The notes under the pieces: model-generated
What the model was told of the DNA's origin: nothing
The model's input: only the letters and a program-made list of their open reading frames with translations
Database searches by the model: none
Assembly (NCBI GenBank): GCA_022791875.1
Contig: JAAVZX010000048.1
Coordinates: 1-64,000 of the forward strand
Source: Oscillibacter sp.
GTDB taxonomy: Bacteria; Bacillota; Clostridia; Oscillospirales; Oscillospiraceae
Reading direction: 5' to 3'
Length of the DNA: 64,000 nt
Translations under genes and position numbers: made by a program
Shown here: positions 1 to 8,325 of the stretch, one piece after another
Position numbering within the stretch: position 1 is the first letter of the stretch
How the letters are laid out: each line of letters opens with the position of its first letter

Positions 1-90
1 GAGATTGCGGACTACGGCATCTGCGGCGACCTCTTCAAGGTCACCCCACTCCTGACCGAAGCCATCCGTGCCGCCAAAGCCGCGAAATAA
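1..90 (+). CDS. etfA: Electron transfer flavoprotein alpha subunit, C-terminal end (partial)
   Basis: Only the last 29 codons are inside the window, in frame from base 1 to a TAA stop. The residues DYGICGDLFKVTPLLTEAI match the typical EtfA C-terminus (DYGIVGDLFxVxPxLTxxI), part of the FAD-binding domain. EtfA and EtfB carry electrons between acyl-CoA dehydrogenase-type enzymes and other acceptors. The short length limits certainty, but this tail is very characteristic of the family. A strong hairpin terminator follows directly. Confidence 0.75.
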   Translation, partial: EIADYGICGDLFKVTPLLTEAIRAAKAAK

Positions 91-110
91 CCCCCTCCAC
101 GCACCCAAAA

Positions 111-141
111 AGCGTGCCGCCCTCCCGGACGGCACGCTTTT
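111..141 (+). terminator. Intrinsic terminator after etfA
   Basis: Nine-base perfect stem (AGCGTGCCG at 111-119 with CGGCACGCT at 130-138) followed by a short T run. A run of A precedes it, so it could also act on the minus strand. Confidence 0.8.
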
Positions 142-243
142 CCATCACCAAACTGACCTTATAAAAAACGCAGGAATTGGCTATTTACGAAAGGCCAGAA
201 GCAGGCTATATTATGGTAAAGTCTTTCACTGGAGGTAACCGAC

Positions 244-804
244 ATGAAACAGAAATGGAGCACACAAAAAATGGTATACACCGCCGCACTGGCGGCGCTG
301 GTATGCGCGGTGACATTCTTCCGCTTCCCGCTGTTCGGCTCAAAGATCCACTTTGCCAACGCCATGTGCCTGCTGAGCGGCCTGCTGATGGGCCCCCTGG
401 CGGGCGGCCTGGCCGCGGGCCTGGGTTCAGTCCTGTACGACGCCCTCTTCGGCGGCTACGACCTGCTGAACTGCGCTATCACCTTCGTAACAAAATTCCT
501 GATGGCCTGGATCTGCGCCAAAATCGCCTTTTCCGGCGGCAAAGAGGCGTCCAGCCACAGCCGGAACACCCTCGCCTGCGTTGTCGGAGCCCTGTCCTAC
601 GTTGCAATGTACATGCTGAAAACGTTTATCTTCCAGATGTTCGTCTACGGCTACCCCATGGAGACAGCGGTAGTCACCATGGGCAGCAAGCTCCCCGCGT
701 CCCTCCTGAACGCGATAGCGGCCATGATTGCCGCCCCGATCCTCTACGCCGCCCTCATCCCGGCCCTCCGCCACGCGGGCCAGCTGGAGAAAATGCGCGC
801 TTGA
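244..804 (+). CDS. ECF transporter S component (substrate-binding membrane subunit)
   Basis: 186 aa, very hydrophobic, with about five to six predicted membrane segments. The pattern of an early TM helix, a segment rich in small residues (LLMGPLAGGLAAGLGSVLYD, about residues 45-65) and a later KxxMAW-type helix is that of S components of energy-coupling factor vitamin transporters. S components capture a vitamin or precursor and share the EcfA/A'/T module, which is not encoded nearby. The substrate cannot be read from the sequence. The start has a good GGAGGT ribosome site eight bases upstream. The gene converges with cas1; only about 45 bp separate the two stop codons. Confidence 0.75.
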   Translation: MKQKWSTQKMVYTAALAALVCAVTFFRFPLFGSKIHFANAMCLLSGLLMGPLAGGLAAGLGSVLYDALFGGYDLLNCAITFVTKFLMAWICAKIAFSGGKEASSHSRNTLACVVGALSYVAMYMLKTFIFQMFVYGYPMETAVVTMGSKLPASLLNAIAAMIAAPILYAALIPALRHAGQLEKMRA

Positions 805-818
805 CGATCCGCAGTCCA

Positions 819-832
819 ATTTCAATCCGCGC
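819..832 (-). CRISPR. Relict of a type I-C CRISPR repeat (3' half)
   Basis: On the minus strand, just after the cas1 stop, the sequence GCGCGGATTGAAAT appears. It matches the conserved 3' end of type I-C repeats (GTGCGTGGATTGAAAT in this locus) at all but one base. A complete locus would have cas2 and then the repeat-spacer array here. Instead the transporter gene begins 15 bp further on. I infer that cas2 and the array were deleted and left this stub; a chance match to the short motif cannot be excluded. Confidence 0.5.
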
Positions 833-849
833 TTCATATCCACAGAACT

Positions 850-1881
850 TCACTTCCACAAAAACGGTGGATAAGCGTCCAAATCCCCCCGGAGATACCG
901 CGCCAGCAGCAGCGCCTGCACATAGGGAATCATGCCCCACGGGAGCTTCTCACCCAGAAACGGATGGGTGAGGGCTTCCTTTTTCTTCTCCTGCCAGCTC
1001 TTCACAAAGGTCCTTTTGGCCTCATCGGTCATCAGAACCGCGCCGCTTTCCATATGCAGAAAATCATCGGCATTGACAACGCGGTTGTTGATCTGCGTCA
1101 GCACGAAACGGTCCGCCATACAGGGGCGAAGCTCCTCCATGAGATCCAGCGCCAGGGAGGTGCGGCCCGGCCGGTCCCGGTGGAGGAAGCCCACATAGGA
1201 GTCCAGGCCCACGCTCTCCAGAGCTGAGGCGCAGTCGTGGGCCAGGAGGCTGTAGGCAAAGGAGAGCAGGGCGTTGATGGGGTCCAGGGGCGGGCGGCGG
1301 TTCCGGCCCTGGAAGCGGAATGTCTCCCGGTTGTTGAGAATCATATCGTCCAGCACGCCGAAATACGCGCTGGCCCCCACCCCCTCCAGGCCCCGCAGGT
1401 GCTCCGGAGAAGTCTCTTCCCTGACCTGGGGCAGGAGCGCACGGATCTGCCGGGAGGCCCCGGAGAGCCGTTCCGCGTCCACCCGCAGGCCGTGATCCCG
1501 CCGCGTCCGCTCAATGCTCCACCGCGCGTTGTACAGCTTGCCGAAGATCATGCTCCGGCTGATCTGACAGCTCTGAACGGGGTCGTCCGCGGCGCGGTAC
1601 TGGGTCCGGCGCAGAAGGACATTCCCGGCGCTGCCGCCGCAGACGCGGGCCAGAAATTTTCCCCTCGGCGAGCAGAAGGCAAAGCCGATCTGCCGCTCCG
1701 CGCAGGCCCCCATCAGAGCCGGTGAGGCCCCCAGATAGGAGAACGTGACCACGTTCTGCAAGGTGTGCAGCGGATACCGTGCAGCGATCTGGCCCTCCCG
1801 CTTTGCCACAATATTTTCCCCGTCCAGAGTCAGATAGATGTCCTCTGACAGGATAAAAAGCGTATTCAACAGGCGTCTCAT
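850..1881 (-). CDS. cas1: CRISPR-associated endonuclease Cas1, type I-C
   Basis: 343 aa, the usual length for I-C Cas1. Cas1 is the integrase that inserts new spacers as a Cas1-Cas2 complex. The N-terminal beta domain starts MRRLLNTLFILSEDIYLTLD. The conserved catalytic Glu region (LEGVGASAYF) and the His-containing segment (SVGLDSYVGFLHRDRPGR) are present, and the protein ends in the family-typical AYPPFLWK. The start ATG overlaps the cas4 stop (ATGA), so the two are translationally coupled. No cas2 follows, so this Cas1 could not form a complete adaptation complex from this locus alone. Confidence 0.93.
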   Translation of the reverse strand: MRRLLNTLFILSEDIYLTLDGENIVAKREGQIAARYPLHTLQNVVTFSYLGASPALMGACAERQIGFAFCSPRGKFLARVCGGSAGNVLLRRTQYRAADDPVQSCQISRSMIFGKLYNARWSIERTRRDHGLRVDAERLSGASRQIRALLPQVREETSPEHLRGLEGVGASAYFGVLDDMILNNRETFRFQGRNRRPPLDPINALLSFAYSLLAHDCASALESVGLDSYVGFLHRDRPGRTSLALDLMEELRPCMADRFVLTQINNRVVNADDFLHMESGAVLMTDEAKRTFVKSWQEKKKEALTHPFLGEKLPWGMIPYVQALLLARYLRGDLDAYPPFLWK

Positions 1882-2540
1882 TGCAGGTCCTCCACGGCGT
1901 CCGCCAGGTAGTCCGAAGCCTTTTTGCCCCGCATCAGCTTCGGTACGCACAAATCCTTCAAAGAGCAGGCTTGGCAGCTCTTTGAGGTCTTCGCCTTCGG
2001 CGTATAGCGCCTCCGGTACAGCGCGTGCATCTCCGCGAGGCTGTCCCGGACCAGGCGGCGAAGCTCCTCCGTAAACGGGACAGCCAGCCGCCGGCGGGAC
2101 TCCCCATAGTACAACGCCCCCTCCGGAACGGTGCAGCAGAGCATCTCTTCCAGGCACATGGCCTGCCCGCAGAGCTGCAATTCGTCCGCCTGCCCCTCCT
2201 TGGGCCTGCCCCGCTTATACTCGATGGGATAGGGCCGCCAAAGGCCCTCCTGGCCCCGGAGGGACACCCCATCAGGGTCCCGGCGGAACTCCACCACGTC
2301 GCACTGACCGGAGACGCCCAGCTCCGCCGAGCGGATCGCCAGTCCGCGGACGGTCAGCACGCGGCCCCGGCTCTCCCGCAGGCCCTGATCGTGGGCGTTT
2401 TCGTGCATGAGGGCCCCGTCCACGGTGCGGTAATTTTCCGCCCACAGGTTTTCGATATGGATCAGGGCCCACTGGCGGCGGCAGAAGCAGAAGTGCTGAA
2501 GGCCCGACAGCTGGAGCCGGTCCTCTTCCGGAATGCTCAT
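1878..2540 (-). CDS. cas4: CRISPR-associated exonuclease Cas4, type I-C
   Basis: 220 aa RecB-like nuclease that trims prespacers and helps choose those with a correct PAM. An N-terminal CFCRRQWALIH cysteine pair and a C-terminal CQACSLKDLC cysteine cluster would hold a 4Fe-4S cluster. The nuclease QhxxY-type motif YPIEYKRGRPK is seen near residue 115. The start overlaps the cas7 stop by four bases and its own stop overlaps cas1, typical of one polycistronic unit. Confidence 0.93.
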   Translation of the reverse strand: MSIPEEDRLQLSGLQHFCFCRRQWALIHIENLWAENYRTVDGALMHENAHDQGLRESRGRVLTVRGLAIRSAELGVSGQCDVVEFRRDPDGVSLRGQEGLWRPYPIEYKRGRPKEGQADELQLCGQAMCLEEMLCCTVPEGALYYGESRRRLAVPFTEELRRLVRDSLAEMHALYRRRYTPKAKTSKSCQACSLKDLCVPKLMRGKKASDYLADAVEDLQ

Positions 2541-3433
2541 CCCATCCGCTTGCAGGTGACGCCGGCGGGAAGGCTGTCCTCGTCCACGGTCACGATGTAA
2601 TCCTGATAGGAGCGGGCCGGAGCATCGCTGTCCCCGTCCCGCCGCCGGACCTGGACGCTCTCAAACAGCTTCCACGCCGGAGCACAGCCCAGTTCGCTGT
2701 CGTGCCGGAAGACGATCAGCTCCCGCACCGCCATTTTCCCCCGGGAGGCGGAGCGGTCGTGCTCAAACATGTTAAGTATGGCCTCCCAGAGCAGGGCCAG
2801 ATCCTCATCGGAGAAGCCGGTGGTCTTCCGGGCCAGGTTGGCGGAGACGTAGCCCTCGCAGCGGTAGAGGCCGTAGGGGACGATGTACTTGCGGCCCATC
2901 TCGGTTCCCTTTCGCTCCGCGTCGGCCTCGGTGGTGATGGCCACGCGGGTGATGGTCACCTCCTGGGGGACGACGGGCTCTATGCTGTGGGCGAAGCCGA
3001 GCTGGACGGGGCCCCGGACCTGGCCGCAGTTCAGGGCGTTCTTGGCAAAGGTGGTCATCACCGCGCCGAAGGTGCGGATGTCGTAGAAGTTCTGGCACAT
3101 CCAGTCCCGGAGGCGCTTGTCCAGATCGGGGTCGGCCTTTTTCTTCTCCTTCACGTCCTTTTCCGTGACCCCCAGGGCGGTGAAGGAGTCCAGATCGCTG
3201 CGGTTCAGGGGCACGCCCTCCTTCACGTAGATCCGGAAGTTCTTGGCGTCCCCCTTCACCGTCTCCACGTAGTTGCGGATCTTGCGCTTGAGGCAGACGT
3301 CCGTGACCAGGCCCAGGCCGGTTTCCGGGTCCACGCGGGGCATATTGCCCGCGTCCGGGTCGCCGTTGGGGTTGCCGTTCTCCACGTCGAAGAGAATCAC
3401 GAATTCATAGCGGTTCTGAATCGGGTTACTCAT
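2537..3433 (-). CDS. cas7: Cascade backbone subunit Cas7 (Csd2), type I-C
   Basis: 298 aa. It opens with the family signature NRYEFVILFDVENGNPNGDPDAG, the glycine-rich start of the Cas7/Csd2 RRM fold. Several copies polymerise along the crRNA to form the surveillance complex backbone; each kinks out every sixth guide base, which matters for the guide-target match described at 6005-6021. The gene overlaps cas8c by eight bases upstream and cas4 downstream. Confidence 0.95.
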   Translation of the reverse strand: MSNPIQNRYEFVILFDVENGNPNGDPDAGNMPRVDPETGLGLVTDVCLKRKIRNYVETVKGDAKNFRIYVKEGVPLNRSDLDSFTALGVTEKDVKEKKKADPDLDKRLRDWMCQNFYDIRTFGAVMTTFAKNALNCGQVRGPVQLGFAHSIEPVVPQEVTITRVAITTEADAERKGTEMGRKYIVPYGLYRCEGYVSANLARKTTGFSDEDLALLWEAILNMFEHDRSASRGKMAVRELIVFRHDSELGCAPAWKLFESVQVRRRDGDSDAPARSYQDYIVTVDEDSLPAGVTCKRMG

Positions 3434-5168
3434 GATCAGCGTCCTCCTTTTTCTCGTATCGCTTCTGGGTCTGGTGGTAGTAGCCGAGCTGGAAGGAGCC
3501 CTGCCGGGGGAGGCTCAGCTGGGCGGGGAATTCCTCGGGCAGAAGAGCGGCCAGGGCGGCAATCTGCTTTTCGTAGTGGATGCGCAGCCCCGTGTCCAGT
3601 TTCCGCAGGTGCTTCTGGGAGAGGTTCAGCAGAACCGGGAAGATGTGGCTTGGCGTGGAAGAGGCGGCGTTGAAGTAGCGGTCCTTGACGGTGGTGTTGA
3701 TGCCGGGATTGGCGGCGGACTGGACCGCCTCCAGGACGGAGAAGAGCCGTCCCAGGGTGTAGGGAATGCTGGTGCTGTCAGGGTTCAGCGACACGGTCAA
3801 AACCTCCTTTGGAATGTCCTTGTGGGGGCGCTTGAGGTAGTATGCCTTGATAATAGCGGCCCGCCCGCGGGTGACTTCATGCTCCGCGCGGATTCGGAGC
3901 AGCGCGCCGTGGAGCAGCGTCGCGGGGTACGGCTCATTCATCAGCACGGCGCGGAGCACCGCGGCGGTCATGTTGGGAGAGGCCGATTTGTCCCTGGAAT
4001 TCGGGTTGACCGTCTCCCCCAACAGCCGCTTCGGCATCAGATTGACGGTCTTGTCATAGGAGGGCCGAACGATCTCCAGGCGGTCATAGTGGTCTTGTAC
4101 ATTTTTCAGAAAGGCCCCGTAGCTGTTCCGCAGGAAGAAGCGGACGGACAGCCGCGCGGCGTTGGGGGCGAGGCCCAGGATATAGAAGGGCCGCTCCGGG
4201 TCCAGGAGGGCCTCGTCGTATTCAACCGGATTCCCCTTCAGAAGCTGCTTTATCATGTCCCGTAGCTCCTGTTCGGTGTAGCTGCACGCCGCGCCGAAGG
4301 TAAAGGCTCCGAAGGCGTCCGGGAAGGCGGGGTCGCCGCCCTCCGCCCAGCAGACTACCGTGGTGTCCCCCATGAGGTAGACGTGCCGGCGGTCCGCCAG
4401 CAGGTGGTTGAGGGCCGAGGTATAGGCGAAAGCGGCGTATTTGCTGATGGGGGCGTTAAGGCTCTGTTCCTTTCCGTAGGAGCAGAAGGCGGGGGCGTTG
4501 AAGGACACCAGCGCCGCGCCGCTGGACTGAGCGCCCTGGACGCCCTTGATGGAGGGGTGAACCGCCTCCACGGAGCCCTCCTGCCCGGTGACCAGGCAGA
4601 CCATCCGGGGTCCATCGCCCTCGGCGCTGTAATGCGTCTGCCACGCCTGCCGGACGGCGGGGTCCATGTGTACGAAAGCGCCGTCGAAGCGGAACACCAG
4701 GTTGGCGTTCGCCATGATGCCGCTGAGATGGTCCTGGAGGGCGGGGTGCGCCTCCGCCGCCTCCGGGTCCCAGGTCCGGAAGAAGCGCAGAAGCGCCTGG
4801 GCGGAGGGGGATGCGAGGCCGCTTAAAAGCTGCTCATGCAGGGCCTTGCAGGCGGCAAAGCACGCCCTGGCCCGCGTCGGGTTCCCCTTTCCGTCGATGC
4901 CCAGGAGATAGGAGCTGTTGTCGCAGAGGAAATTGGGGGCAATTCCCACGGTGCGTTTGACCGGGGCGGGCAGTTCGATCAGGCGTGGGGTGAGGACCTC
5001 CTTGTCTCCCCGCTTTTTGCTTTCCTGGACGGACACGGCGCGGAGCAGCCGCCCCTCCCCGCCCAGCTCAAGGGCGTAGGAGACTTTTACCTGATTCCAG
5101 CCCGGAGGCGCAATCTGGTTCCGCGCGGCTAAATCCTCGTAATGCCGCACCAGTGCCTGTAAAATCAT
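3426..5168 (-). CDS. cas8c: Cascade large subunit Cas8c (Csd1), type I-C
   Basis: 580 aa, the expected size for Csd1. It starts MILQALVRHYEDLAARNQIAPPGW, the usual Csd1 N-terminus. This subunit reads the PAM and starts DNA unwinding; in I-C an internal start can also give the small subunit Cas11c, which I did not map. It overlaps cas5 by four bases upstream and cas7 downstream. Confidence 0.94.
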   Translation of the reverse strand: MILQALVRHYEDLAARNQIAPPGWNQVKVSYALELGGEGRLLRAVSVQESKKRGDKEVLTPRLIELPAPVKRTVGIAPNFLCDNSSYLLGIDGKGNPTRARACFAACKALHEQLLSGLASPSAQALLRFFRTWDPEAAEAHPALQDHLSGIMANANLVFRFDGAFVHMDPAVRQAWQTHYSAEGDGPRMVCLVTGQEGSVEAVHPSIKGVQGAQSSGAALVSFNAPAFCSYGKEQSLNAPISKYAAFAYTSALNHLLADRRHVYLMGDTTVVCWAEGGDPAFPDAFGAFTFGAACSYTEQELRDMIKQLLKGNPVEYDEALLDPERPFYILGLAPNAARLSVRFFLRNSYGAFLKNVQDHYDRLEIVRPSYDKTVNLMPKRLLGETVNPNSRDKSASPNMTAAVLRAVLMNEPYPATLLHGALLRIRAEHEVTRGRAAIIKAYYLKRPHKDIPKEVLTVSLNPDSTSIPYTLGRLFSVLEAVQSAANPGINTTVKDRYFNAASSTPSHIFPVLLNLSQKHLRKLDTGLRIHYEKQIAALAALLPEEFPAQLSLPRQGSFQLGYYHQTQKRYEKKEDADHE

Positions 5169-5830
5169 CCCCGCACCTCCCCGCTGTCCCGCGGCGGCAC
5201 GTGGAGCACGCCGTCCCGGAGCACCGCACGGAAAAACAGGGGGCGGATGTTCTCCGGGTCTGAGTAATCCATGTCGTAGAGCATATAGCCCAGGTCCCGC
5301 TCTCCCCGCAGTTCCTCAGGACAGGGCGGGATGTCCCGGCAGGGGGCGAAGTGGGCGGGGAACTCCCGGCAGCCCAGGTAGGGCTGGCTGTAGAACTGCC
5401 CCTTGGCGATGCGGCGGCTTACGATATCCTGGAATTTGCCGGGGTTGTCCCCCGCGCCGGCCCGCTCGGGCACGATCTCGAAATGGGCCTCGATGGCGTA
5501 CCGCACATTTTGCAGCAGCAGGGCGGCCCGCTGCTGGATGTCCTGGGAGGTAACCAGGTAAAGCTCCCCGTGTCCGCGCTCCATAGCCGCTCTGGCATTG
5601 CGGGCGGAGACAGTGGATTTGACCTCGTTGCGCCGGAGGCTGGCAAAGCGGATGGGGGCCAGGACGTGGATGCGGTCGACGATCCAGCGGATGCCCGGAT
5701 GCCAGTAGATGCTTTCAATCAGGCCCCGGGCGGCGGAGGGTGTCATAAGATCGTAGCTCACTCGCTCCACCTTCATCTCCGGGCGGTTGAAGGAGGCGTA
5801 CTCTCCCCATACCTCCATGCAGATGGGCAT
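5165..5830 (-). CDS. cas5: CRISPR-associated Cas5d (crRNA-processing subunit), type I-C
   Basis: 221 aa from the ATG at 5830, which has an AGGAG site eight bases upstream; longer in-frame extensions lack this support. In type I-C Cas5d replaces Cas6: it cuts the repeat at the base of its hairpin and stays bound to the 5' handle. The N-terminus (MPICMEVWGEYASFNRPEMKVERVSYDLMT...) and the SAARGLIESIYWHPGIRW segment are typical. It is the first gene of the cas5-8c-7-4-1 unit. Confidence 0.93.
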   Translation of the reverse strand: MPICMEVWGEYASFNRPEMKVERVSYDLMTPSAARGLIESIYWHPGIRWIVDRIHVLAPIRFASLRRNEVKSTVSARNARAAMERGHGELYLVTSQDIQQRAALLLQNVRYAIEAHFEIVPERAGAGDNPGKFQDIVSRRIAKGQFYSQPYLGCREFPAHFAPCRDIPPCPEELRGERDLGYMLYDMDYSDPENIRPLFFRAVLRDGVLHVPPRDSGEVRG

Positions 5831-5974
5831 GTGCTTCACTCCTTTCTTTCGGTTTGGTGGCTCCCGATTTTTTGTGCTCCCGCCCCCGGCCGGGGGGCGG
5901 AAACACAGGGGCTTTCCTTTATGGAGGAACATGAAGGTGAATCAGGATTTTGGCGGAAAGCCCTTCCATGTCAA

Positions 5975-6003
5975 AGTATAGCACTTATTGCGCCGAAAGT
6001 CAA
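5975..6003 (-). promoter_or_regulatory. Promoter of the cas5-cas8c-cas7-cas4-cas1 operon
   Basis: On the minus strand TTGACT (5998-6003) and TATACT (5975-5980) are separated by exactly 17 bp, a near-consensus sigma-A promoter pointing at cas5, whose start is about 140 bases downstream. It is separate from the transcription of cas3, which lies upstream. The sequence just upstream of the -35 box is the target of the nearby guide RNA. Confidence 0.75.
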
Positions 6004-6004
6004 T

Positions 6005-6024
6005 ACTCTTCTTCCATCTCTAAA
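6005..6024 (-). promoter_or_regulatory. Cascade operator: protospacer-like target of the locus' own guide RNA
   Basis: Reading the minus strand from 6021, the sequence is AGAGAtGGAAGaAGAGT. The guide starting at 6125 is AGAGAcGGAAGcAGAGT. Fifteen of 17 bases match, and the only mismatches fall at guide positions 6 and 12; position 18 mismatches as well. In type I Cascade every sixth guide base is flipped out and is not read, so this is an essentially perfect seed match for a Cascade target. The three bases in the PAM position are TTT (6022-6024), close to the I-C PAM TTC. A full-length footprint would cover the -35 box at 5998-6003. Confidence 0.8.
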
Positions 6025-6052
6025 GATGAAATATGCGGAACATATTTCCGCC

Positions 6053-6081
6053 TTGCAAACGGAAAAAGAGCGATGTATAAT
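6053..6081 (+). promoter_or_regulatory. Promoter of the CRISPR-like guide RNA
   Basis: TTGCAA (6053-6058), 17 bp spacer, TATAAT (6076-6081). The predicted start near 6088 is immediately before the pseudo-repeat hairpin. It diverges from the cas operon promoter. Confidence 0.75.
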
Positions 6082-6087
6082 CAAATT

Positions 6088-6195
6088 GCCGCATTTTACA
6101 GAGAAAAAGTGCGTGGATTGAAATAGAGACGGAAGCAGAGTTTAGGAAGCAGCGTCGGGGCAGGAGTGCAGACTCCCGCCCCGTCGGCTTTTTTA
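6088..6195 (+). ncRNA. CRISPR-repeat-like guide RNA (CreR/crlRNA type) predicted to repress the cas operon
   Basis: About 108 nt, with promoter and terminator of its own. Bases 6091-6112 fold into a 7-bp stem with an 8-nt loop, and the conserved I-C repeat end GTGCGTGGATTGAAAT (6109-6124) overlaps the stem's 3' arm, as in a true I-C repeat. The 5' half of the repeat has diverged, so this is a pseudo-repeat. The guide begins at 6125 and matches the cas promoter region (see 6005-6024). Established knowledge: CreA/CreR-type RNAs in type I systems use a degenerate repeat and a short partly matching spacer to direct Cascade to promoters without triggering Cas3 cleavage. The assignment here is inference from sequence. 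Confidence 0.75.
6153..6194 (+). terminator. Intrinsic terminator of the guide RNA
   Basis: A 15-bp stem with two mismatches (6153-6167 with 6172-6186, GCAG loop) and a T6 run at 6189-6194. The left arm starts GTCGGGGC and may also stand in for the 5' half of a second pseudo-repeat. On the opposite strand there is no T run after the stem, so it serves the plus-strand RNA. Its T run overlaps the cas3 stop codon. Confidence 0.8.
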
Positions 6196-8325
6196 CAGAA
6201 AATAGCGGTCCTCATCCGTCTCCATGCCCAGCCCCGTTTCATCGGAATAGAGCTGGAGGTCCAGGAGAATGACGCTACCGTCCTCCAGCGGTTCCAGCAC
6301 GCCGCCCTCGTCCAGCGCCTTGAAGTGCGGCGGGTAGACGGAAACGCCGTACTGTCCCAGCTCCCGGAACAGCTGCCGGGAACGCTCTCCCCTCCGAAGC
6401 CGTTCCACAAGCTCCGCGCCGTCGCCTGTGGGGATGTAAACAGTGCGGGTGTCCTGATCAATCAGGCGGAAGTGCTCAGCCACTGTCCGGAAGGGGAAGC
6501 TCCCCTTCCGAATGAGGGGCAGAATGCCCTCCTTATCCTGGGCCTCCGGCCCCTTCAAATCCAGCAGCTCATGGAAGTAGTACGAAACCGCCTCCGGGTC
6601 AGACAAGTCCTCATAGCGGCTCATAGCCGCCTGCCCCGCGGCGATTGCGGCGGAGAATATCTCCGGAGGCGCAGTCTCCGCCTTGAATACCGTGACGACG
6701 CTCTCACTGGCGGGCCGCTTCCCCTCCCGGTTGCAGCGCCCCGCCGCCTGCAAAATGGAGTCCAGCCCCGCTTCCTCCCGGAATACCAGGGGAAAGTCCA
6801 CGTCCACACCCGCCTCGATCAGGGAGGTGGAAACCACCCGGCAGGGCAGACCCGCTTTCAGCCTGCTCCGTATCTCGTCCAGCACGGCCCTCCGGTGGAA
6901 GGGGGCCATGAGGGTAGACAGGTGGTATCCGCCCTCTCCCCGGATGCCCTTGTAGACCTCCAGCGCGTTTTTCCGGCTGTTGACGATGCAAAGGGCCTGC
7001 CGGGCGTCCCCAAGGCGCTGGTGCAGCTGGGCCCAGGTGAGCACCCCCTCCCTTTGGAACCGCACCCGTTTGAACACCGGCGCGCTCATGACGGACGCCG
7101 CGCAGATCTTCGGAATGGAAACGCCGGGCAGGAATTCCTGAAACAGCGGCGAGAGGGCGGGCTGCGTCGCGGTGCAGAGCACGGCGGAGACGCCGTAGTG
7201 CGCCGTGAGCTGGGCGATGGCAGAGACACAGGGGCGCAGATAGCTGAGGGGAAGCATCTGGGCCTCGTCGAAGATGACAACGCTGTTGGCCAGGCTGTGG
7301 AGCTTCCGGCACTGGGAGGGGCGGTTGGAGTACAAAGACTCGAAGAACTGCACGGCCGTGGTGACCACCACCGGCATATCCCAGTTTTCAGCGGCCCGCA
7401 TCCGCCTGGCGGCCTCCGGCGTGACGGCCCCACAGGCGTCGGTGTCATACTGGACGTTGGAGTGGTGCTCCAGCACGTTTTCCGCGCCCAGGACGTCCCG
7501 GAAGGTTCTGGCCGTCTGCTCTATGATGGAGGTGTAGGGAATGACATAGACAATGCGCGTTTTGCCGTGGGCGCAGGCGTGGCTCAGCGCGAAGGCCAGG
7601 GAGGCCGTGGTCTTGCCGCCGCCTGTGGGGACGGTCAGCGTAAAAAGTCCCGGCTTCTGCGCGGCCCCCTGCCGGATGCACTGCTCCAGCACCGCACAGC
7701 GCAGGGCGTTGACCTCCCCCTTCGGCGGGAACCAGCCGGAGACGGCCTGGCGCAGGCGTTCATACAGCGCCTCCATGGACGTATCGCTTCCCCGGGGAGG
7801 CGCTTCCCCGGCCATGAAGCGCTCCGTGTCCAGGTAGTCTGCGTCCACCAGGCAGGAGTAGAGCATCCGGATATAGAAGAAAGCGTCCTCTTTGATGAGG
7901 ATCGCCGGAGGCTGCGGTGCAGGGAGGGCCAACTCCTGCTGCCATGCGCCATACGGCTCCAGCTCTCCCCTGCGGGCCCGATTCATCCGGCCCCAAAAGG
8001 TGGGGAGATCGGGGGCGTTGTTTCGGCTTCCGCCGTCGGGCAGGCCGCCGTGGTGTCCTGCAACGCAGAACGCGGCGGCGGTCTGTCCCCGCCGGAAGCA
8101 CTCAAATGCGCCCGCCGTCGCGTGGTCCACCCGGGCGCCTCCCTCAAGGCGGCGCTGGAAGGCGGCGGAGTATTTTCCGATATCGTGGGCCATGCCCGCA
8201 AGGTCGCCCAGCTCTTCTGCACCGAAGGACGCGGCGAAGCGGCGGCACAGGTCCGCGGTGCCCTCCAGGTGCTGGAGGACGGTCTGCTTCCGCTTGTCCT
8301 CGGAGATGTGGGCCAGATATTCCAT
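6193..8325 (-). CDS. cas3: CRISPR-associated helicase-nuclease Cas3, type I-C
   Basis: 710 aa. An N-terminal HD nuclease domain (H19, AHDIGKY with H47-D48, H68, HH at 91-92) is fused to an SF2 helicase: Walker A PTGGGKTT at 233-240, DEAQ at 353-356, and the C-terminal motifs TSLIEAGVDVDFP and QAAGRCNREG. It unwinds and degrades DNA once Cascade has bound a fully matching target. It is slightly shorter than many I-C Cas3 proteins but no motif is missing. It is upstream of the cas5 operon, but the two are separated by the guide RNA unit and a dedicated promoter. It has a GGAGG site before its ATG. Confidence 0.94.
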   Translation of the reverse strand: MEYLAHISEDKRKQTVLQHLEGTADLCRRFAASFGAEELGDLAGMAHDIGKYSAAFQRRLEGGARVDHATAGAFECFRRGQTAAAFCVAGHHGGLPDGGSRNNAPDLPTFWGRMNRARRGELEPYGAWQQELALPAPQPPAILIKEDAFFYIRMLYSCLVDADYLDTERFMAGEAPPRGSDTSMEALYERLRQAVSGWFPPKGEVNALRCAVLEQCIRQGAAQKPGLFTLTVPTGGGKTTASLAFALSHACAHGKTRIVYVIPYTSIIEQTARTFRDVLGAENVLEHHSNVQYDTDACGAVTPEAARRMRAAENWDMPVVVTTAVQFFESLYSNRPSQCRKLHSLANSVVIFDEAQMLPLSYLRPCVSAIAQLTAHYGVSAVLCTATQPALSPLFQEFLPGVSIPKICAASVMSAPVFKRVRFQREGVLTWAQLHQRLGDARQALCIVNSRKNALEVYKGIRGEGGYHLSTLMAPFHRRAVLDEIRSRLKAGLPCRVVSTSLIEAGVDVDFPLVFREEAGLDSILQAAGRCNREGKRPASESVVTVFKAETAPPEIFSAAIAAGQAAMSRYEDLSDPEAVSYYFHELLDLKGPEAQDKEGILPLIRKGSFPFRTVAEHFRLIDQDTRTVYIPTGDGAELVERLRRGERSRQLFRELGQYGVSVYPPHFKALDEGGVLEPLEDGSVILLDLQLYSDETGLGMETDEDRYFL

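Follow-up and report, generated by a model that had tools for sequence, protein, structure and literature searches.

The closest described relatives of the element reported here are the CreR, or cas-regulating, RNAs, reportedly described by Liu et al. in Cell Host Microbe in 2023. A related study by Shmakov et al. in the same year is said to have dealt with stand-alone repeats and mini-arrays, crRNA-like regulators near cas promoters that belong mostly to types I and V-A, and these elements reportedly often have two repeats and are often aimed at cas8. In the relevant passages of three papers, CreR is a crRNA-like RNA, partly complementary to its own cas promoter and generally without a toxin, which represses through the effector complex (PMC12737573, PMC13131331, PMC12948488). 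CreR is placed in types I-B, I-E and V-A in one review (PMC13131331) and in 'Type I and Type V-A' in another, which also describes competition with crRNAs and relief by anti-CRISPRs (PMC12737573). In the toxin-guarding CreTA systems, the Haloarcula example is described as flanked on both sides by cas genes, those downstream of it being served by a strong promoter (PMC9458426).

We analyzed a 64,000-nt stretch of Oscillibacter sp. DNA (the window) in which profile matches identify a minus-strand operon with the order cas3, cas5c, cas8c, cas7, cas4, cas1c, that of a type I-C system. The cas3-cas5 gap is 362 nt long. An initial annotation had proposed that it holds, opposite the cas strand, a small RNA gene made up of a promoter, a hairpin with the end of an I-C repeat, a guide and a terminator. 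All of these features were located, the promoter and the terminator as predictions:

850-1878, minus strand: cas1c (TIGR03640)
1878-2540, minus strand: cas4 (TIGR00372)
2537-3433, minus strand: cas7 (TIGR02589)
3426-5168, minus strand: cas8c (TIGR01863)
5165-5830, minus strand: cas5c (TIGR01876), the first gene downstream of the targeted promoter
5975-6003, minus strand: predicted cas5 promoter, TTGACT-17-TATACT, with its -35 box 1 nt from the target
6005-6021, minus strand: target (protospacer core) by its match to the guide, the sole PAM-flanked match in the genome
6022-6024, minus strand: PAM, TTT, preceding the target
6053-6081, plus strand: predicted guide RNA (creR) promoter, TTGCAA-17-TATAAT, 10/12 to consensus, both boxes kept in the related locus L015
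6090-6113, plus strand: degenerate repeat hairpin CGCATTTT-ACAGAGAA-AAAGTGCG, 8 pairs by folding
6114-6124, plus strand: I-C 5' handle TGGATTGAAAT, with the same sequence as the end of the array repeat in this genome
6125-6141, plus strand: guide of 17 nt by sequence comparison, matching the target except at positions 6 and 12
6144-6194, plus strand: predicted terminator by folding, a GC-rich hairpin and T-run forming the 3' end of the RNA
6193-8325, minus strand: cas3 (NCBIfam cas3_core and cas3_HD, above cut-off), its stop codon adjoining the gap

The element has no second repeat, the handle being followed by the guide and then the terminator, and the gap holds a single repeat end where an ordinary array would have at least two near-identical repeats. 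The plus-strand terminator is visible by folding only and was not listed by pattern scanners in the window; a terminator-like hairpin is present in L015 too. Rfam at gathering scores gave no match in the window.

The guide had been claimed to match its target at 15 of 17 positions, and the alignment agrees exactly: positions 1-5, 7-11 and 13-17 all match and only 6 and 12 do not. The TTT reported in the PAM position does precede the minus-strand target (6021-6005), and the target abuts the predicted cas5 promoter as described, a single nucleotide separating it from the TTGACT box. The number of 15/15 matches expected by chance in the 362-nt gap, with the register fixed, is about 7e-7 (uniform bases, 724 start sites). 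When the 2.95-Mb genome was searched for the PAM and target pattern with up to two mismatches, only the target itself (0 mismatches) and the guide, which lacks the PAM (2 mismatches), were recovered.

The remainder of the system lies on a different contig of the same genome, C88, where cas2 and an I-C array were found with seven repeat copies, the outermost of them degenerate; cas2 and this array form the start of the contig (L008, 1-951). The cas1 end of the operon, at 850, adjoins an unrelated plus-strand ORF at 244-804 (window 1-850), and the split of cas1 from cas2 and the array over two contigs possibly reflects a rearrangement or an assembly problem. A further repeat-like end, GCGCGGATTGAAAT, lies directly after cas1 on the minus strand, at about 819-833 of the window. 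No PAM-flanked target for it was found in the first 3 kb, where the best other match was 11/15, and it is possibly a remnant of a lost array or a product of chance.

Searching 60 relatives with the DNA of the gap returned only an array (L011) and a short weak match (L012), so related loci were gathered through Cas5c instead. The best 80 of 345 loci encoding a Cas5c relative were taken, giving 81 loci with the window, and the stretches searched were the cas3-cas5 gaps or, where cas3 was missing, up to 400 nt upstream. An element was present in the gap in 31 of the 81 loci, about a third, and none was called there in the other 50. The 31 elements fall into 19 guide clusters at 11/15 identity. 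For each, the target was chosen as the best match over 15 scored positions (1-5, 7-11 and 13-17).

Guide and target change together across these loci. The initial annotation had predicted that they would covary in related I-C loci while bases 6, 12 and 18 drifted, and both halves of this prediction were borne out: 445 of 465 scored positions match over the 31 loci, as against 256 in the best of 20,000 shuffled pairings, and the drift is at chance. Each scored position matches in 25-31 of the 31 loci; four loci match at 13/15 and L087 at 12/15. The positions that Cascade had been said to tolerate as mismatches behave as expected from column make-up, position 6 matching in 7 loci (9.3 expected), position 12 in 5 (5.8 expected) and position 18 in 10 (10.0 expected), and positions 19-34 match in only 3 to 12 of 31 loci each, which is also chance. 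The high match at the 15 scored positions is not free of selection, because targets were picked on those positions; the chance-level match at 6, 12 and from 18 onward is free of it, because those positions were unscored. The pair in L015, whose Cas5c is 84% identical to that of the window, illustrates the pattern: its guide differs from the window's at five scored positions (3, 4, 5, 7 and 11), and its target has changed in the same five ways. L026 and L030 share an identical guide. The PAM is TTC in 26 loci and TTT in 5.

The selection bias at the scored positions is answered by guides ascertained from the handle alone and by swapped, shifted and reversed controls. A search for the handle, allowing at most one mismatch in TGGATTGAAA with TGAAA fixed, gave 30 hits among the 81 stretches, all 30 opposite the cas5 strand. 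For 28 of the 30 guides so defined, the stretch also contained a target that scores 13/15 or more and has a TTC or TTT PAM. When guides were swapped between loci, a match of at least 13/15 with a TTY PAM was reached in 17 of 870 combinations, and when they were shifted or reversed, in 0 of 180. The two misses of the handle test were L087 (12/15, with positions 1-14 all matching except 6 and 12) and L070 (8/15); the latter has a gap of 477 nt and carries the handle with no target in its stretch, and stands outside the 31. The family thus consists of the 28 handle-test positives plus L087, L078 and L092, these three admitted under looser rules.

Type I Cascade is indifferent to every sixth base. 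The 6-nt periodicity is therefore a signature of Cascade reading and not of plain antisense pairing. The anatomy of the element, its PAM, the covariation, this periodicity, the 17-nt limit and the place at a predicted promoter can all be read directly from the compared sequences.

The repeat portion differs in sequence between loci. Stems of differing sequence still pair (CGCA/TGCG, CAGGG/CCCTG, CGTTG/CAACG and CACGGT/GCCGTG), and the stem before the handle is short in many loci; the stem score reaches 5 in only 19 of 31 loci, compared with 21% of shuffles. Handle residues G at -10 and T at -7 are present in 31/31 loci; TGAAA was required in most of the search, and its invariance is partly by selection. 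Where array repeats of the same loci are visible they have longer GC stems, which marks the creR repeats as degenerate. An automatic terminator scan was positive in 11 of 31 loci and missed the window.

Presence of the element follows the length of the gap. In the first set, cas3 was found in 71 of 81 loci, and the element is in 30 of 31 gaps of at least 220 nt and 0 of 40 shorter ones; of the 10 loci without a measurable gap, one, L074, carries it. A wider sample, from a draw of 398 genomes of the window's phylum (Bacillota), took the 73 Cas5d places with the highest scores, which were all those ranked above that of the window, and 72 were scanned after L145, which gave no Cas5 hit, was left out. 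Hits were obtained in 6 of 72, with none in the other 66 and 1 of 72 on reversed sequence, so the element is uncommon in this sample. Three of the hits lie inside the gap (L130, L139 and L194), and here all 3 long gaps hold the element and none of the 68 short ones does. Over the measurable gaps of both samples it is present in 33 of 34 of at least 220 nt and in 0 of 108 shorter, so that in these loci a cas3-cas5 gap of at least 220 nt reliably marked the element. Presence is not clustered on the Cas5c tree, the fewest changes being 23 and, for the group of loci with none, 23 against a shuffled mean of 23.5, on a quick tree with 35 of 78 inner branches open. Exact patterns of two guide types behind the handle gave 0 matches each in viral contigs.

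Candidates outside the gap were also seen. L134, L140 and L193, the other three hits of the wider sample, have CreR-like candidates near or upstream of cas3, and L058, from the first set, has a 15/15 guide-target pair with a TTT PAM upstream of cas3, about 2.3 kb upstream of cas5. All four of these loci have a short cas3-cas5 gap.

Targets lie close to promoters in the relatives as in the window. In 26 of 31 loci, the target has a promoter-like -35 box directed towards cas5 at a distance of 0-18 nt. Taken over every position of these gaps the rate is 9.3%, and in shuffles it is 5.0%. By a strict scan, five of the 31 loci are without a consensus cas5 promoter. Fifteen loci have the target on the coding strand of cas5 and 16 on the opposite one, and in either orientation the 34-nt protospacer or its PAM end would lie on or against the -35 box. 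In several loci with the target on the non-coding strand of cas5, the complex could also reach the predicted creR -35 box, and CreR may thus regulate its own gene in these loci. Over the 31 creR loci, the weakly resolved Cas5c tree requires at least nine changes of target strand, and the place between the two promoters was constant.

We consider it very probable, from the sequence features above, that a type I-C stand-alone guide RNA directs Cascade to its own cas promoter in CreR-type autorepression, as the initial annotation had proposed, and the assignment of the element to the CreR-type cas-regulating RNAs, here in type I-C, appears well supported. Observations that count against it are L070, with its handle but no target, the matches of only 12/15 or 13/15, the stem and terminator counts, the five loci short of a consensus cas5 promoter, the many loci where no element was called, and the structured leader common to L015, L021 and L023. 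We infer its transcription, processing, binding, repression, sparing by Cas3 and feedback logic as follows. The creR transcript would contain one degenerate repeat, which Cas5c, the crRNA-processing enzyme in type I-C systems (PMC7684278), would cut 3' of the stem, leaving the 11-nt handle UGGAUUGAAAU and the guide. This RNA would load into Cascade (Cas5c-Cas7-Cas8c) and guide it to the 17-bp site that has the PAM and lies next to the -35 box, and Cascade seated at the cas5-8-7-4-1 promoter would block RNA polymerase. With only three 5-bp segments paired, the R-loop would stay incomplete, and Cas3 would not be expected to fire. In a type I-F1 system, truncated R-loops are described as abolishing Cas2/3 cleavage (PMC7296934), which suggests by analogy that the 17-nt match would not trigger Cas3 in I-C and should spare the site. 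Cascade would in this way limit its own synthesis, with cas3 outside the targeted promoter, and the block would be relieved when crRNAs from the array are abundant or when anti-CRISPRs deprive the cell of Cascade.

The same guide-target architecture would be seen if the RNA were a CreTA- or CrePA-like guard, repressing a toxin that the cas5 leader carries; a cell losing Cascade would then be arrested or killed, and control of cas5 would be a by-product. The predicted leader in the window is 139 nt long and has a strong GC hairpin and short ORFs; L015, L021 and L023 have similar leaders (81% over 47 nt and over 103 nt) that include a hairpin, those of L021 and L023 having a similar 33-35-codon ORF near the start; and in L082 a 483-aa SLFN_AlbA_2 gene lies between the targeted promoter and cas5. 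However, the predicted leader is just 35-48 nt in 8 of the 23 loci examined for leaders, which is too short for a toxin gene, and the window's leader is unlike those of L015, L021 and L023 except for the ribosome site and a weakly alike start. No known toxin was recognized in the leaders, though an RNA toxin would escape recognition by sequence, and no toxin-like ORF common to the leader set was found. We regard such a guard as improbable.

The leaders have features of their own. The part shared by L015, L021 and L023 is about 100 nt long, and its hairpin arms co-vary between L021 and L023. The window's predicted cas5 leader has a strong GC-rich palindrome at 5880-5900 that is absent from the aligned L015 leader. 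The L082 gene (3500-4951), of SLFN_AlbA_2 / winged-helix type, lies downstream of the creR-targeted promoter, and the circuit may there control a cargo gene.

It is considerably less likely still that the RNA acts mainly without Cascade, either pairing as antisense with a transcript that reads through from cas3 to cas5 or interfering with transcription. The RNA is predicted to be transcribed towards cas3, opposite any read-through message, but the PAM, the 6-nt periodicity, the kept handle and the place of the target would be left unexplained. A dead leftover repeat with a chance match, which the degenerate stem and single repeat might suggest, is the least credible reading of all in the face of covariation in 31 loci and of the swapped (17/870) and shifted or reversed (0/180) guides.

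Type I-C CreR may follow a fixed rule, three 5-bp segments only, kept while guide, target and target strand turn over, and this could tentatively be read as selection for an R-loop length that holds Cascade but never licenses Cas3. Cascade level might then be set independently of Cas3, because the product of cas5c, the first repressed gene, would mature the RNA, and the targeted promoter does not include cas3 among its genes; the same complex may shut off creR where the target faces creR. The crRNA positions that type I-C Cascade reads in the cell can be deduced from the 31 natural guide-target pairs, as can the match length that evolution has kept against the host chromosome. The carriers include named strains in culture, such as Butyricicoccus pullicaecorum DSM 23266 (L037) and Flavonifractor plautii ATCC 29863 (L020), where Cascade self-control and its relief by crRNA load or anti-CRISPRs are testable in a Cas6-less subtype.

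The element resembles CreR in having repeat-like sequence outside an array, here with an intact handle, and a guide partly complementary to its own predicted cas promoter, with a PAM. It differs in belonging to type I-C, in which the crRNA-processing enzyme is the product of the gene next downstream of the targeted promoter, and in having one degenerate repeat and a predicted terminator, within the operon and on the opposite strand, with a match limited to 17 nt. It shares with the elements of Shmakov et al. the class of crRNA-like regulator near cas promoters, but those are said often to have two repeats and to be aimed at cas8. The likeness to creA of CreTA extends to an ectopic repeat reported as degenerate, as in creR here, a TTC PAM, a partial promoter match and Cascade as repressor (PMC9458426); creA, in contrast, guards an RNA toxin, and here none was recognized and several relatives are without room for one. 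Racr, as presented in PMC10651486, is likewise a single I-C-like repeat unit making a small RNA, but it is phage-derived and inhibits CRISPR-Cas, whereas the element here sits in a cas operon with a matched chromosomal target. No type I-C CreR was among the literature matches listed, a comparison that did not include the main CreR and mini-array studies. The CreR kind is already known, and at this locus the element can fairly be called a further member of it, marked by a type I-C, single-repeat, intra-operon layout.
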